Origin: Kutzneria chonburiensis
GTDB taxonomy: Bacteria > Actinomycetota > Actinomycetes > Mycobacteriales > Pseudonocardiaceae
Assembly: GCF_028622115.1 (NCBI RefSeq)
Contig: NZ_CP097263.1
Coordinates: forward strand, 7,254,001 to 7,318,000
Length of the DNA: 64,000 nucleotides
Reading direction: 5' to 3'
Shown: piece by piece, positions 56,617 through 61,960 of the stretch
Numbering within the stretch: the first letter of the stretch is position 1
Layout: each line of letters starts with the position of its first letter
Made by a program: the position numbers and the translations under genes
Notes under the pieces: model-generated
Told to the model about the DNA's origin: nothing
The model's input: only the letters and a program-made list of their open reading frames with translations
Databases searched by the model: none

Positions 56617-57162
56617 GTGGCGGTGACCGAATCGCACCGACGTCGGAACGTCAAGAAGCAAGTGCGGGTGGAGCCGACGGCCACGCTGGAGTGGTCGCAG
56701 GCCGTCGAGTTGGCCGGTGAGCTCTCCGACGCCACCGGACCCGCGGACACCCGCCGCGCCTGGATCCATCGCGCCCCCGAACGGCAGGTTCTCGGCCTGT
56801 ACCGGGTGCTCACCAAGTTCGAGCCCGAACTGCCCGCGCCCTGGTGGCTGCGTGCGCTGTCGGCCGGCGGACTGCCTTCCCGCAAGGCCGCCTTCCGGCT
56901 GGAGGATGAGGTCGGCGCGCTACTGGCCGCCCGGCCGGGCTGGGTGTACGTGCCCTGGGAAGAGGGCTGCTGGGAGTACCTGCCGTCCGAGGTGTTCGCG
57001 GCCGGGGAGGCGCCGACCGTGCCCACCACCGTCATGTTCACCGCCCGCCATCGAGGCTGGCTGGACGTGCTGCCGGCGCACCGCGGCACCCCGCCGAAGT
57101 TGATCGCCGTTCGTGGCCTCGACGACCTGCGGAGCAGGCTGGACGACATCGAGGCGACCTGA
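56617..57162 (+). CDS. Hypothetical protein
   Basis: 181 aa, soluble, basic N-terminus (SHRRRNVKKQVRVEP). Contains RAPERQVLGLYRVLTKFEPELPAPWWLRALSAGGLPSRKAAF and a Trp-rich middle (WVYVPWEEGCWEYLPSEVF). GTG with GGAGG 6 bases upstream. I recognise no family. It lies 20 bases before trmB on the same strand. Confidence 0.55.
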   Translation: MAVTESHRRRNVKKQVRVEPTATLEWSQAVELAGELSDATGPADTRRAWIHRAPERQVLGLYRVLTKFEPELPAPWWLRALSAGGLPSRKAAFRLEDEVGALLAARPGWVYVPWEEGCWEYLPSEVFAAGEAPTVPTTVMFTARHRGWLDVLPAHRGTPPKLIAVRGLDDLRSRLDDIEAT

Positions 57163-57182: not shown

Positions 57183-57899
57183 GTGAGCCCGACAGACCAG
57201 CGTCCACCGCACCACCGTTCCATCGTTTCCTACGTCCAGCGCGGCGAGCGGATGACCGTCGGCCAGCAGCGCGCCTGGGACACCCGGTGGCCCGACCTGG
57301 GCCAGGACGTCAAGGCGCTGCCGCCCGGTCCACTCGCGCTGGACGAGTGGTTCGGGCGCACGGCCCCGGTGCTGCTGGAGATCGGCTCGGGCATGGGGGA
57401 GACCACCTCGCAGCTGGCCGCCGCGCAGCCGGAGCTCAACTACCTCGCCTGCGAGGTGTACAAGCCGGGTCTGGCCCAGCTCATCCTCCGGGCTGACGTG
57501 CTGGAGGTGGATTCGCTCCGGCTGCTGCGCGGGGATGCTGTCACCGTGCTCACCGAACATCTTTCCCCGGACTCGCTGCACGGCGTGCGGCTGTTCTTCC
57601 CGGACCCGTGGCCCAAGGCCCGCCACCACAAGCGGCGCATCGTGCAGCCCGACTTCGTCGCGCTGGTCGCGTCCCGCCTGGTGCCCGGCGGCGTGTTCCA
57701 CATGGCCACCGACTGGGAGGAGTACGCCGAGCAGATGATGACTGTCTGTAGCGGCGAGGCTCGGTTGCGCAACGTGTACGCCGATGAGCCGGGCGGGTGG
57801 GCGCCCCGACCCGACTGGCGGCCGGTCACCAAGTTCGAGAACCGGGCCGTCGACGAGGGCCGGATCAGCCACGACCTGATGTTCGCCAAGGTCGACTAG
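57183..57899 (+). CDS. trmB: tRNA (guanine-N7-)-methyltransferase
   Basis: 238 aa. SAM-binding LLEIGSGMGETTSQLAA and the TrmB signature RLFFPDPWPKARHHKRRIVQ; the C-terminal TKFENRAVDEGR is also typical. It makes m7G46 in the variable loop of tRNA. GTG start. Confidence 0.92.
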   Translation: MSPTDQRPPHHRSIVSYVQRGERMTVGQQRAWDTRWPDLGQDVKALPPGPLALDEWFGRTAPVLLEIGSGMGETTSQLAAAQPELNYLACEVYKPGLAQLILRADVLEVDSLRLLRGDAVTVLTEHLSPDSLHGVRLFFPDPWPKARHHKRRIVQPDFVALVASRLVPGGVFHMATDWEEYAEQMMTVCSGEARLRNVYADEPGGWAPRPDWRPVTKFENRAVDEGRISHDLMFAKVD

Positions 57900-58053
57900 G
57901 TCACCCGACCGAGTACTCAAGTCTCGGCGGCGTCCGGTCGAGTCGGCCACTCTGGGTCTAGCACTCACCCGTTCGGGCGGAGATCCACTAGTCCGAGGTG
58001 TGCCCCTTCTGGCAGTGACGAGTGAGCCCGGCCGCAGATTACGGTTGCCGACC

Positions 58054-59181
58054 GTGACGGCTCTGGCAACCCTCCCTGCCCTCGACTCCGTCGATCTCGA
58101 CGCCGCCGAGGAGTTTCTCCGCATGTTCCACGACGCGCACCCGGAAGCCGGTCCGGTGGGCGCGCGGCTGATCGAGGTGCGTACCGAGATCGCCAACACC
58201 GGGACGTACCGGCACACCCCGCAGGAGCTCGCCTACGGGGCACGCGTCGCACTGCGCGACAGTGGCTGGTGCACCAGCGGCGTGCCCTGGCGCCGGCTCA
58301 AGGTGCGCGACCTGCGCGGCCTGCGCAACGCGACCGCCGTCGCCGCCGAATGCGTGCAGCATCTGCGGCTGGCCACCAACGGCGGTGAGATCCGGCCGCT
58401 GGTCACGGTGTTCGCGCCGGACACGCCGTCAGCGCCGGGGCCGTGCATCTGGAACGAGCAGCTGGTGCGCTACGCCGGCTACCGGGACGCCACCGGCCGG
58501 ATCATGGGCGACCCGCGCTACGCCGACTTCACCGAGGCCGTCACGACGATGGGCTGGCGGCCGCCGACCCAGAAGGGCCGCTTCGACCACCTGCCGCTGG
58601 TCGTGGAGACCGCGCACGAGGGGCCGCAGCTGTTCACCATCGCGCGGGACGTGATCCAGGAGGTGCCGCTGGAGCATCCCGAGCTGTCGTGGTTCGTGGA
58701 GCTGGGGCTGCGCTGGCACGCCGTGCCCGTGATCAGCAACATGCGGCTGGTCATCGGCGGCGTGACCTATCCGGCGGCGCCGTTCAACAGCTGGTTCGTG
58801 GGCGCCGAGATCGGCACCAGGAGCCTGGCCGACGAGGGCGCGTACGCCGTGGCCCGGGAGGTCGCCACGCGGCTCGGGTTGGACACCCGCACCGAGCGGA
58901 CGCTGTGGCGCGATCGGGCGACCGTGGAGCTCAATCGGGCAGTGTTGCATTCGTTCGACGCCGCCCAGGTGACCATCACCGACCACCACGCCGAGGCTCT
59001 GCACCGGTTGGCCTGGCTGCGTTCGCGGCAGCGGGCCGGCGGCAACCGGCCCTCGTTCCGGGTCGACGCGGCGACGGCGCAGCGGGCCCGGCAGGGCACT
59101 CCGGCGCGGTTCGCCGACACCGTGAGCACCGAGCCGCACGGCGGGCGGCTGGCCGCCCTGCTGCGCAAACGCCTTGGCTGA
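58054..59181 (+). CDS. Nitric-oxide-synthase-like heme protein, divergent
   Basis: 375 aa, aligning along most of bacterial NOS oxygenases (EIANTGTYRHTPQELAYGA, ATNGGEIRPLVTVF, IWNEQLVRYAGY, PFNSWFVGAEIG, VELNRAVLHSF, DHHAEALHRL). The heme-ligand Cys73 and the substrate Glu252 are kept. The usual RCIGR-x2-W loop is WCTSG-x2-W; the heme-stacking Trp five residues before the Cys is Leu67... (sixth before); the residue matching the substrate-side Asp/Asn of EIGxRD/N is Ser257. The C-terminal WLIPPxSP pterin segment is absent, replaced by a basic Ala/Arg tail. It may therefore not make NO from arginine. GTG start; TACGGT ends 8 bases upstream, probably leaderless. Confidence 0.8.
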   Translation: MTALATLPALDSVDLDAAEEFLRMFHDAHPEAGPVGARLIEVRTEIANTGTYRHTPQELAYGARVALRDSGWCTSGVPWRRLKVRDLRGLRNATAVAAECVQHLRLATNGGEIRPLVTVFAPDTPSAPGPCIWNEQLVRYAGYRDATGRIMGDPRYADFTEAVTTMGWRPPTQKGRFDHLPLVVETAHEGPQLFTIARDVIQEVPLEHPELSWFVELGLRWHAVPVISNMRLVIGGVTYPAAPFNSWFVGAEIGTRSLADEGAYAVAREVATRLGLDTRTERTLWRDRATVELNRAVLHSFDAAQVTITDHHAEALHRLAWLRSRQRAGGNRPSFRVDAATAQRARQGTPARFADTVSTEPHGGRLAALLRKRLG

Positions 59182-59446: not shown

Positions 59447-60610
59447 GTGGACAACGGGTACCTCGGCTGGCGGGTGCTGGCCCGCCGGCAGTGGCCGCTG
59501 GCCGCGGCGCTCGCCCTGCTGCTGCTGTTCCAGGCGGTGGCCTGGCGCGGCATGGATCCGCGGATGTGGTGGCTGCTGCCCGGGGATCTCATCGTGGCCG
59601 TGTTGGCCGTGCTCTCGCCCCGGCGGCCCTTCGACGCCGCGGTGGCCGCGTCGATCGCCATCGCCGGCAGCTCACTGGTGCTGCACGGACTCGGCCTCGT
59701 ACAGCTCAGCGGCGAGATCGTGCCGCTGGCCGCGGCCATGGCGATGAGCGCGATCGTGGTCCGACAGTCCTCACGTGGCCGCGCCGTGTTCGGCACGCTG
59801 GCGCTGGCCATGGCGTGGGCGATCACCGCGTACCTCGACCGGCAGGCGTTCGCCGAGGAATCCCTGGTCGGCGGCGTGGCCAACGTCCTCGCCATCCTGG
59901 TCTTCACGTTCGGCCTTGCCGTCGGCACCGGCCTGTACTTCCGGGCCCGTGACCGTGAACGACGGCAGGCCGAGTCCGCCTCGGTCGCCGCGGCTCAGCA
60001 GGCCGAGCGGCTGGCCCTGGCCCGTGAGCTGCATGACGTCGTCGCCCACTACGTCACCGGCATCGTCGTGCACTCCCAGGCCGCCGAGGCGATCGCCGAC
60101 CAGAATCCCGATGCCGCCCGGCAGGTGCTGCCGATCATCACCGCCAGCGGTCACGAGGCGCTGGCCGCCATGCGCCGGCTCGTCGGCACCCTGCGCGGCA
60201 CCGAGGGCACAGAAACCAGCCGCGACAACGACGAGCTGACCGCACAGATCAAGCGGACCGTCAACCAGGTCGGCGGTCCGGTACGGCTGGACGTGCAGCT
60301 TTCCGACACCGTGCCGCCCGAGCTGGCGCAGTCGGTGATCCGGCTCGTGCAGGAGTCGCTGACCAACGCCCGCAAGCACGCCGCCGGCGTCAGCCGGATC
60401 GATGTGGACGTGCGCACCGCCGACGGTGTCGTGCGGGTGCGGGTGGCCGACGACGGAACCGGTCAGCACAGCAGTCCGGTCGGCGGGTCCGGCGGCTTCG
60501 GGCTCGTCGGCATGCGTGAGCGGGTCGAGTTGCTCGGCGGCAGCTTCAACGCCGGTCCCACCGGGGGCAGCGGCTGGACGGTGGTGGCCGAGCTGCCGTT
60601 GGGCGGATGA
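59447..60610 (+). CDS. Orphan NarL-type sensor histidine kinase
   Basis: 387 aa. Five or six membrane helices (residues 18-165), then HisKA_3 with His in LALARELHDVVAHYVTGIV and a HATPase domain (ESLTNARKHAAG, VADDGTG, GLVGMRERVELLGG). No response regulator gene is adjacent. GTG start with TACGGT 7 bases upstream; the leader TACGGTTGCCG is identical to that of the NOS-like gene. Confidence 0.87.
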   Translation: MDNGYLGWRVLARRQWPLAAALALLLLFQAVAWRGMDPRMWWLLPGDLIVAVLAVLSPRRPFDAAVAASIAIAGSSLVLHGLGLVQLSGEIVPLAAAMAMSAIVVRQSSRGRAVFGTLALAMAWAITAYLDRQAFAEESLVGGVANVLAILVFTFGLAVGTGLYFRARDRERRQAESASVAAAQQAERLALARELHDVVAHYVTGIVVHSQAAEAIADQNPDAARQVLPIITASGHEALAAMRRLVGTLRGTEGTETSRDNDELTAQIKRTVNQVGGPVRLDVQLSDTVPPELAQSVIRLVQESLTNARKHAAGVSRIDVDVRTADGVVRVRVADDGTGQHSSPVGGSGGFGLVGMRERVELLGGSFNAGPTGGSGWTVVAELPLGG

Positions 60611-60622
60611 CAGAATCCGGTC

Positions 60623-61960
60623 ATGGTTTCGGCTTTCCGGCTACACGCCCCGGTCGTGCTGCCCTGTGACGCGTCCTGCTCGGTCGTTCGCGACGCCGTC
60701 GTCGACGTCGCCGCCGACGGCCGGCTCGGCTACGTCGGCCCCGCGTCGAACGCGCCGGCGCTGTCCGACGGCGTGCCGGTGCGGGAGCTGTCCGGCATCC
60801 TGCTGCCCGGCTTGATCAACACGCATGCGCACAGCCCGATGACCGTGCTCCGCGGCATGGGCGGCGACCTGCCGCTGATGTCGTGGCTGCAGGAGGTCAT
60901 CTGGCCGGCCGAGGGCCGCCTCGACGGCGACGACGTGCGGGCCGGCATGCGGCTCGGGGCCGTCGAGATGCTGCGGCACGGCGTCACCACCAGCGTCGAG
61001 ATGTACTTCTACGGCGAGCAGATGGTCGAGGCCGTGCTCGAGGCCGGGTCCCGCATGGTGCTCACCCCGGCCGTGATTGCCGCCCCCGGCTGGGACCGGC
61101 TCGGCAGCTGGCTGCACATGACCGACCAGATCAGCGCGTGGATCGACGCCGACGGCCTGCGTTTCGGTCCCGGCGAACGGATCGAGCTCGGCTACGGGCC
61201 GCATTCCGCCTATACCCTGCCGGCCGAGGCCCTGCCCGTCATCGCCGCCGAGGCCAAGCAGCGTGGGGCCCTGCTGCACATCCACGTCGCGGAGTCGCTG
61301 GCCGAGGACGCCCACCTGCGCGACGCCCACGGCTCCGTTCCCTTGCTGCTCAACTCCTTGGGCGTCTTCGGCGGTCGCGTGATCACCGCCCACTCGGTTC
61401 ATCTGTCCGATGTGGACATTCAGCTCTACGCCGCGAACGGCGTCGGCGTCGGGCACTGCCCCGGCTCCAACGCCAAGCTCGCCTCCGGCACCGCCCGGCT
61501 GCTCGACCTTCGCCGCCACGGCGTGAATGTCGGTCTCGGCACCGACGGTCCGGCTTCGAACGACGACCTCGACCTGTGGGAGGAGATCCGCCTCTCCGCC
61601 CTGCTCGCCCGTCTCAGCTCGGCCGACGCCGCTGCTGTCACCGCCGCCCAGGCCCTGCTCATGGCCACCCGTGGCGGTGCCGCCGCCATCGGCCGTGACG
61701 ACCTCGGCACCCTCGCCCCCGGCTGTTGGGCCGACCTCGTGCATGTCGACCTCGACGACCCCGCCTTCGCCGCCGGCCTCGACGTCCCCAACGCCCAGTT
61801 GCTGTCCAACCTCGTCTGGGCCGCCGGCTCCCGCCGCGTCCGTGACGTCTGGGTGGCCGGTGCCGAGGTCGTCGCCGCCGGCGAGTCCACCCAGGTCGAC
61901 CGGACCGCCGCGGCGGCCGAGGTCCGCAAGGTCACCCAGCGGCTGGTGGCCGACGCCTAA
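60623..61960 (+). CDS. Amidohydrolase (MTA/SAH or cytosine deaminase family)
   Basis: 445 aa metal-dependent deaminase. Ligands: NTHAHSPM (HxH), VEMYFYGEQ region, LHIHVAE (His), TAHSVHLS (His), GLGTDGPASND (Asp). Resembles 5-methylthioadenosine/S-adenosylhomocysteine deaminase and TRZ/ATZ hydrolases; the exact substrate is open. ATG 60623 with CAGAAT ending 6 bases upstream and no ribosome site. It ends in a 4-base overlap (CTAA) with the EamA gene. Confidence 0.82.
   Translation: MVSAFRLHAPVVLPCDASCSVVRDAVVDVAADGRLGYVGPASNAPALSDGVPVRELSGILLPGLINTHAHSPMTVLRGMGGDLPLMSWLQEVIWPAEGRLDGDDVRAGMRLGAVEMLRHGVTTSVEMYFYGEQMVEAVLEAGSRMVLTPAVIAAPGWDRLGSWLHMTDQISAWIDADGLRFGPGERIELGYGPHSAYTLPAEALPVIAAEAKQRGALLHIHVAESLAEDAHLRDAHGSVPLLLNSLGVFGGRVITAHSVHLSDVDIQLYAANGVGVGHCPGSNAKLASGTARLLDLRRHGVNVGLGTDGPASNDDLDLWEEIRLSALLARLSSADAAAVTAAQALLMATRGGAAAIGRDDLGTLAPGCWADLVHVDLDDPAFAAGLDVPNAQLLSNLVWAAGSRRVRDVWVAGAEVVAAGESTQVDRTAAAAEVRKVTQRLVADA

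Follow-up and report, generated by a model that had tools for sequence, protein, structure and literature searches.

A branch of nitric oxide synthase-like proteins in Pseudonocardiaceae without the pterin-binding segment and with an altered proximal haem loop

In nitric oxide synthases (NOS) the thiolate of a conserved Cys is the axial haem ligand, a Glu binds the guanidinium group of arginine, an Asn/Asp together with the Arg of a DRY motif holds its amino-acid end, and a C-terminal WxWxxPP ... HRYY segment binds the pterin. Here we analysed a 64,000 nt stretch of Kutzneria chonburiensis DNA (contig NZ_CP097263.1, positions 7,254,001 to 7,318,000; hereafter the window), which encodes a NOS-like protein. 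The animal NOS haem domains (eNOS, nNOS, iNOS) are its best PDB matches by sequence and by fold, and it differs from them in having no reductase domain, no pterin segment and an altered proximal loop. Ordinary actinobacterial NOS, of which TxtD, RufN, PtnF and Laj3 are named examples (PMC10831120), belong to the same Pfam family and share the fold, the haem Cys, the substrate Glu (Glu or Asp among the closest relatives of the window protein, group A below) and the tail behind the pterin segment. The paralogue of its own genome (L001/L228) is another example of the class. To eight such sequences the window protein is 57–62% identical, but RCIGR is replaced by WCTSG, the stacking Trp by Leu, the Asn by Ser and the DRY Arg by Ala, and a segment of 29 residues is absent. 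NOS-guided mining has been described with homologues of more than 45% identity to PtnF (PMC10831120), and none of the terms Kutzneria, Saccharothrix, clade or phylogen- appears in the main text of that paper. Our literature search listed no work that we could identify, by its title or abstract, as a description of such a branch.

The gene, its predicted fold and its active site

The following features of the window are needed for the comparison, with group A denoting the 64 aligned sequences to which the window protein belongs:

58054..59181, + strand: NOS-like protein lacking the pterin segment; 375 aa, from GTG to TGA (59179–59181), PF02898 at 372 bits
58252..58281, + strand: proximal haem loop L67-R-D-S-G-W-C73-T-S-G76, in place of W-R-N-x-x-R-C-I-G-R
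58270..58272, + strand: Cys73, the expected axial haem thiolate, aligned with the NOS haem Cys (64/64 group A rows)
58807..58809, + strand: Glu252, at the guanidinium-binding Glu of NOS (group A: E 56, D 8, n = 64)
58822..58824, + strand: Ser257, for the substrate-side Asn/Asp (group A: S 47, G 10, A 7, n = 64)
59044..59049, + strand: junction N331/R332, where the protein lacks 29 residues present in ordinary NOS (the WSWIVPP...HRYY segment), compared with L001 and L023

The open reading frame at 58054 is a strong NOS-oxygenase homologue. A scan from 58000 gave a PF02898 (NO_synthase) score of 372 bits against a cut-off of 22.7, with an E-value of 3e-111 and coverage of profile positions 7–320 of 362, and a sequence search from 58054 aligned human eNOS over about 320 residues of the 375-aa protein (E about 1e-86). 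The initial annotation, made from the letters alone, had reported an alignment over most of a NOS oxygenase and named a profile search as its check; the assignment stands on this match, and the extent of the alignment is borne out by both searches and by the predicted fold. NCBIfam models gave nothing above cut-off on the NOS-like protein, and likewise nothing for two ordinary Kutzneria NOS. The closest named relatives among the matches listed are Kutzneria species with 93, 91 and 91% identity, K. viridogrisea following at 83%. The start at 58054 was picked by comparative DNA. We rejected the longer frame from a GTG at 58000, which is probably wrong as a start since the K. viridogrisea relative carries an in-frame TGA between both candidate starts and promoter-like DNA of fixed spacing is conserved there.

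AlphaFold2, supplied with 40 rows, returned a single-chain model with a mean pLDDT of 85.1 and a pTM of 0.83, in which residues 71–80, including the Cys, reach 65. The control, an ordinary Kutzneria NOS (37 rows), gave a mean of 81.0, 61 for the same block and about 35 for its pterin segment. The best fold match is human eNOS with a TM-score of 0.78, and the order of secondary-structure elements is much as in the control, so that structure prediction, which the initial annotation had also suggested, recovers a model whose fold is that of a NOS oxygenase. Low confidence in the Cys loop was considered as a sign of a disordered haem site and rejected, the dip being equal in the control; since the ordinary NOS is modelled with the same uncertainty there, the prediction is uninformative on this loop.

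Alignments to eNOS and to the ordinary paralogue, which carries the loop WRNSARCIGR and the distal sequence GTEIGARN, both place C73 on the haem Cys. The residue positions of the initial annotation (Leu67, W72-C73-T74-S75-G76, Glu252 and Ser257) are all correct in the numbering of the 375-aa protein, and what it had read from one sequence, a heme Cys and substrate Glu retained while loop, stacking Trp and Asp/Asn are changed, extends over the whole of group A. In the alignment of unique ORFs Cys and a preceding Trp are found in 64/64 rows and Glu or Asp likewise in 64/64, whereas the RC[IVL]GR loop or the stacking Trp occurs in 0/64. The latter is replaced by Leu in 62 and Met in 2 rows, the Arg of CIGR by Gly in 63 and Val in 1, and the Arg of DRY by Ala in 58, including the window protein, and Gly in 6. 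SGWC is the new constant proximal motif of the branch. The distal floor is kept, with Phe in 63, Asn in 64, the Trp of FNxW in 63 and Glu/Asp in 64 of the 64 rows, and the Arg of EIGxR is present in every one. A Glu in the VVET stretch, where a Gln was expected, was dropped as a branch-specific change, many ordinary actinobacterial NOS rows carrying Glu too.

From the start of DHH to RPEF we counted by hand 51 residues in the ordinary NOS L023 of a Crossiella-type genome (G108) versus 22 in the window protein. Beyond the gap the tail (PxFxxDxxxxRxxxGxPxxF) is retained, PEFVLDPDAAHRGQHGAPHRF aligning with PSFRVDAATAQRARQGTPARF, and since it still aligns, the deletion of these 29 residues, which include the pterin Trp pair and HRYY, was in frame. 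Hence the C-terminal pterin segment, given as WLIPP in the initial annotation, is indeed absent without any frameshift that would restore it, but the protein is not truncated: the loss is internal and the tail remains. A frameshifted C-terminus is rejected on the same grounds. The two WSW tryptophans and HRYY are missing from 64/64 group A rows, so altered loop and lost segment are shared by all homologues of this group. As these changes recur in every row and in many Pseudonocardiaceae genera, they are not a local mutation, and sequencing error is rejected for the same reason.

Extent and position of the branch

Our alignment comprised 171 unique NOS-family ORFs, ORFs below 200 bits being left out. 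By pattern these fall into 79 canonical rows (including two Cys-to-Gly rows sorted there), 64 of group A with the window protein, 3 of group B, 13 of C, 2 of D, 5 of E (a single broken gene supplying two of these rows), 2 degenerate rows, 1 odd row (L074) and 2 Cys-to-Gly rows. The Cys is kept in 82/82 rows of groups A to D, while the Glu is lost in 13/13 rows of group C and 2/2 of group D. In group C, where all 13 rows have the Cys, Glu is replaced by Ala (10), Thr (2) or Gly (1) and the Trp by Val (12) or Ile (1), DHH is altered (E 12/K 1, H 12/Q 1, S 11/T 1/A 1), and the row inspected at its C-terminus, L060, has lost the tail as well. Group B, from Streptoalloteichus and Longimycelium, has neither the Trp pair nor HRYY and retains the tail. 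It is the first to split off in the trees, and since this early-splitting group shows the same loss, the loss of the pterin segment is old.

A quick tree was built from 91 rows, to which 163 had been thinned by removal of near-copies; L073, L202 and L074 had been excluded beforehand. Here a split with an SH-aLRT of 100 separates the branch (46 rows) from the rest, its neighbour being the ordinary NOS of Pseudonocardiaceae. Because the loop itself defines the group, we rebuilt the tree without the columns of the loop, of the distal stretch and from DHH onward, using 49 rows of our choice (24 branch, 25 ordinary). The split was recovered with support of 95/90 and as one split in 96% of 200 bootstrap trees. 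The close homologues are therefore not ordinary NOS, and the suggestion of a possible unrecognised branch is backed by this split together with the missing NCBIfam model and the literature search.

PF02898 matches were obtained in 84 of the 150 family genomes searched, the own genome included. Ordinary matches score about 420–518 bits and mostly reach profile positions 347–361, while those of the short class mostly score 265–377 bits and end at about 298–324; fragments, a 204-bit degenerate copy and an odd 244-bit match lie outside both. By hand transcription, the 149 other genomes comprise 60 with the branch, 66 with ordinary NOS (one of these with a fragmented copy), 43 with both, 23 with ordinary NOS only and 17 with the branch only, some of the 17 being draft assemblies, so that the absence of ordinary NOS is not certain in every one of them. 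Among the best 80 named loci of the matches listed, reading of the ORFs gave 59 with the altered loop and 21 ordinary NOS. Genera with the altered loop are Kutzneria, Umezawaea, Saccharothrix, Lentzea, Crossiella, Saccharopolyspora, Solihabitans, Gandjariella, Kibdelosporangium, Actinocrispum, Streptoalloteichus, Longimycelium, Actinophytocola and Actinokineospora, together with Actinosynnema sp. ALI-1.44. Two more of the 59 loci, titled Nocardia sp. NRRL S-836 (L127) and Rhodococcus rhodnii NRRL B-16535 (L135), sit with Lentzea and Kibdelosporangium, which suggests that these titles are probably wrong.

Beyond the family, partly overlapping sweeps of the order (298 genomes, match in 61) and of the class (394 genomes, match in 55) yielded 81 loci with a match, of which 79 are readable: 74 have a C-x-G-R loop, four a Cys-to-Gly change (L197–L200), and in one (L304) the frame is interrupted close to the loop. 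These direct readings agree with the classification of the loci by score. L203 and L204 are weak C-terminal matches with no readable NOS ORF. The branch loop was found in 0/79 of these readable loci, which represent sampled genomes and not all bacteria. L197–L200, from genus g58 of another family (f13), have a divergent NOS fold with the haem Cys changed to Gly (WANADKGIGR/WANADRGIGR) and with Trp, GIGR and Glu kept; they score about 200 bits with model A1, and L197 234 bits with PF02898.

Upstream DNA, neighbourhood and selection

The surroundings of the gene contain the following elements:

56617..57162, + strand: 181-aa protein without family assignment, preceding trmB; relatives occur in the flanks of 41/46 branch loci
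57183..57899, + strand: trmB, tRNA (guanosine-46-N7)-methyltransferase, the upstream neighbour (TIGR00091, 150 bits; synteny)
58009..58053, + strand: promoter-like element; CTGGCAGTGACG at 58009–58020, -10-like TACGGT at 58040–58045, 8 nt to the GTG
59447..60610, + strand: histidine kinase (HisKA_3, Pfam), the downstream neighbour in some genera
60623..61960, + strand: ATZ/TRZ-type amidohydrolase (PF01979), syntenic with trmB in many family genomes, with or without a NOS-like gene

The CTGGCAGTGACG motif occurs in 50/64 group A rows. Its spacing to the GTG is 44 nt in 46 of these and 43 nt in 3, one row giving no value; Saccharopolyspora accounts for most of the 14 rows lacking the motif. With one mismatch, 65 of 76 matches in 2.79 Mb of partly redundant locus DNA fall at this place. 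Synonymous change is nearly absent upstream of GTG 58054, and this scarcity together with the in-frame TGA of K. viridogrisea leads us to conclude that the stretch functions as DNA; by its sequence it may be the promoter of a leaderless mRNA. The own genome (10.4 Mb, one contig) contains one exact match, and a regulon search in it with up to two mismatches gave 7 matches, as many as the reversed control (7). In group C another stretch is conserved upstream of the gene.

The usual place of the branch gene is between trmB and the amidohydrolase. Of the 46 branch loci, 34 have trmB, 34 the amidohydrolase and 31 a histidine kinase belonging to one cluster, counted at any position in the flanks and thus in part not adjacent. 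For 126 non-canonical ORFs, a redundant set including five unrelated odd rows, the more sensitive tblastn located a flanking trmB in 111 cases and a flanking amidohydrolase in 96. However, genomes that have no NOS-like gene also carry trmB and amidohydrolase side by side or close together, and a kinase of the same cluster fills the slot there too. The slot is consequently independent of the NOS-like gene, a functional link to trmB, amidohydrolase or kinase is weakened, and we found no neighbour specific to the branch gene. Relatives of the 181-aa protein, for which we obtained no Pfam or NCBIfam match, adjoin trmB in genomes without a NOS-like gene as well. The Kibdelosporangium/Actinocrispum set (L045, L054, L075 and named copies) lies at another location and keeps the GWC motif. 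The ordinary NOS of the own genome (510 bits, profile positions 4–359) also occupies a different slot, 1.85 Mb from the NOS-like gene.

In genus g5 an ordinary NOS lies directly behind trmB, in the trmB–amidohydrolase slot, in 4/6 genomes searched (L216–L219); the RCIGR loop is intact in L081 (same gene as L219), and all four are classed as canonical by pattern. These genes share their position with the branch, but they differ from it by the ordinary loop and are placed away from it in the tree. A clade joining them with the branch costs 42 log-likelihood units (p-AU 0.043) and is weakly rejected, the group having been named after its position was seen.

Two further sets of NOS-like genes occupy the trmB slot. 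In genus g27, which also has a Cys-bearing NOS-like copy at another place, the haem Cys is changed to Tyr and the Glu to Ala (L069–L071, L229), and in one genome (G114) this Tyr-type copy is split over two frames. L072 and L073 of genus g23 are strongly degenerate, one being in two pieces. The copy in this slot appears broken in two lineages. Apart from these sets, an unusual 739-aa frame in genome G109 (L074, 6821–9037, minus strand) carries in its last 340 residues a very divergent NOS domain of 242 bits with the loop WRADPRCIRR, its first part having no Pfam match.

Median pairwise dN/dS values (Nei–Gojobori) were 0.146 for the branch in Kutzneria (6 rows) versus 0.254 for ordinary NOS of the same genus (6 rows). 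In other branch sets they amounted to 0.079 in Lentzea (8), 0.344 in Saccharopolyspora (5), 0.451 in Crossiella-type genomes (4; highest pair 0.622), 0.290 (4) and 0.368 (5) in group C and 0.204 (3) in the Tyr group. With dN/dS below 1 in all seven sets, the branch is under purifying selection. The later losses of Glu and Cys in group C and the Tyr group may reflect either further functional change or decay.

Candidate functions of the branch

That these proteins form a neofunctionalised branch of NOS is almost certain in our view. Judged by the residues replaced, they would very probably not be pterin-dependent arginine NOS, and they are likely to be haem-thiolate proteins. A haem-thiolate enzyme with changed chemistry, as the initial annotation had it, is plausible, and the simplest reading would be that selection still maintains, at a haem-thiolate site, the binding of a cation close to the iron, though not of arginine with pterin. 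We propose a model in which a NOS-oxygenase paralogue would have arisen once in (or before) Pseudonocardiaceae and then lost the pterin-binding segment by in-frame internal deletion, its proximal haem loop being rewritten to a new fixed motif and the gene presumably kept by selection since. The group A protein would still bind haem b via Cys73 and would keep the cation-binding distal floor (Phe, Trp, Glu); with Asn and the DRY Arg lost, the amino-acid end of arginine would no longer be anchored, and tetrahydropterin would not be usable. External electrons, or peroxide, would drive such a pterin-independent enzyme. Taken as a whole, from paralogue and segment loss to new loop and pterin-free haem-thiolate enzyme, this is our best explanation, held at slightly less than even confidence. 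A shade more tentative is the reaction class, a pterin-independent haem-thiolate enzyme acting on a guanidine, an amidine or another cationic non-amino-acid compound. Catalysis may, moreover, not be a function shared by the whole branch, since the Glu is lost in groups C and D and the Cys, replaced by Tyr, in one group.

The persistence of the Cys even in the 15 Glu-less rows of groups C and D would also suit a non-catalytic haem-thiolate sensor or regulator that reports gas, peroxide or redox state and whose unneeded substrate and pterin sites have decayed, and both the conserved promoter-like element and the histidine kinase gene adjoining in several genera point the same way. We nevertheless regard this as rather unlikely, because group A retains the entire cation-binding distal floor, for which a gas sensor would have no use, the kinase (or a kinase–regulator pair) occupies the slot without the gene too, and no output domain was seen. 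The losses of Glu and Cys and the apparent frame breaks in two lineages could instead belong to a slowly decaying NOS copy with a structural role, as a haem-free scaffold, or with none; selection, which in Kutzneria gives a dN/dS even below that of ordinary NOS, conserved promoter-like DNA and a constant SGWC motif that does not resemble random loss make this quite improbable.

Readings closer to ordinary NOS fare no better. An arginine NO synthase working without bound pterin and still producing NO would agree with the Cys and Glu/Asp kept in group A, and in an assay given in PMC10831120 an ordinary NOS forms nitrite when supplied with N-hydroxyarginine and peroxide. Yet Asn/Asp, DRY Arg, stacking Trp and pterin Trp pair are gone from every group A row, and an ordinary NOS is also present in 43 of the 60 branch-bearing genomes, so we consider it very unlikely. 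This co-occurrence would in turn be expected of a regulatory partner in mixed dimers with ordinary NOS, which appears highly improbable in view of the 17 genomes with the branch and no detected ordinary NOS and of the distance between both genes in the own genome. We therefore return to the pterin-free haem-thiolate enzyme, whose most specific form we advance still more cautiously than the reaction class: a family that may have originated by a single in-frame excision from NOS, that would oxidise a non-arginine guanidine-like compound and whose daughter lineages would have swapped the Glu and even the Cys (to Tyr).

For annotation within Pseudonocardiaceae it follows that a PF02898 match is insufficient to call NO production, since 17 of the 149 other genomes yielded this branch and no ordinary NOS. 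How tuning by pterin and thiolate makes a NOS haem site act as an NO synthase and not as another oxygenase is a long-standing question, to which this lineage contributes a natural series without pterin segment, stacking Trp and substrate anchors, in some members also without Glu or Cys, that is still under selection. The branch thus offers testable proteins for the pterin-free abilities of the NOS fold.
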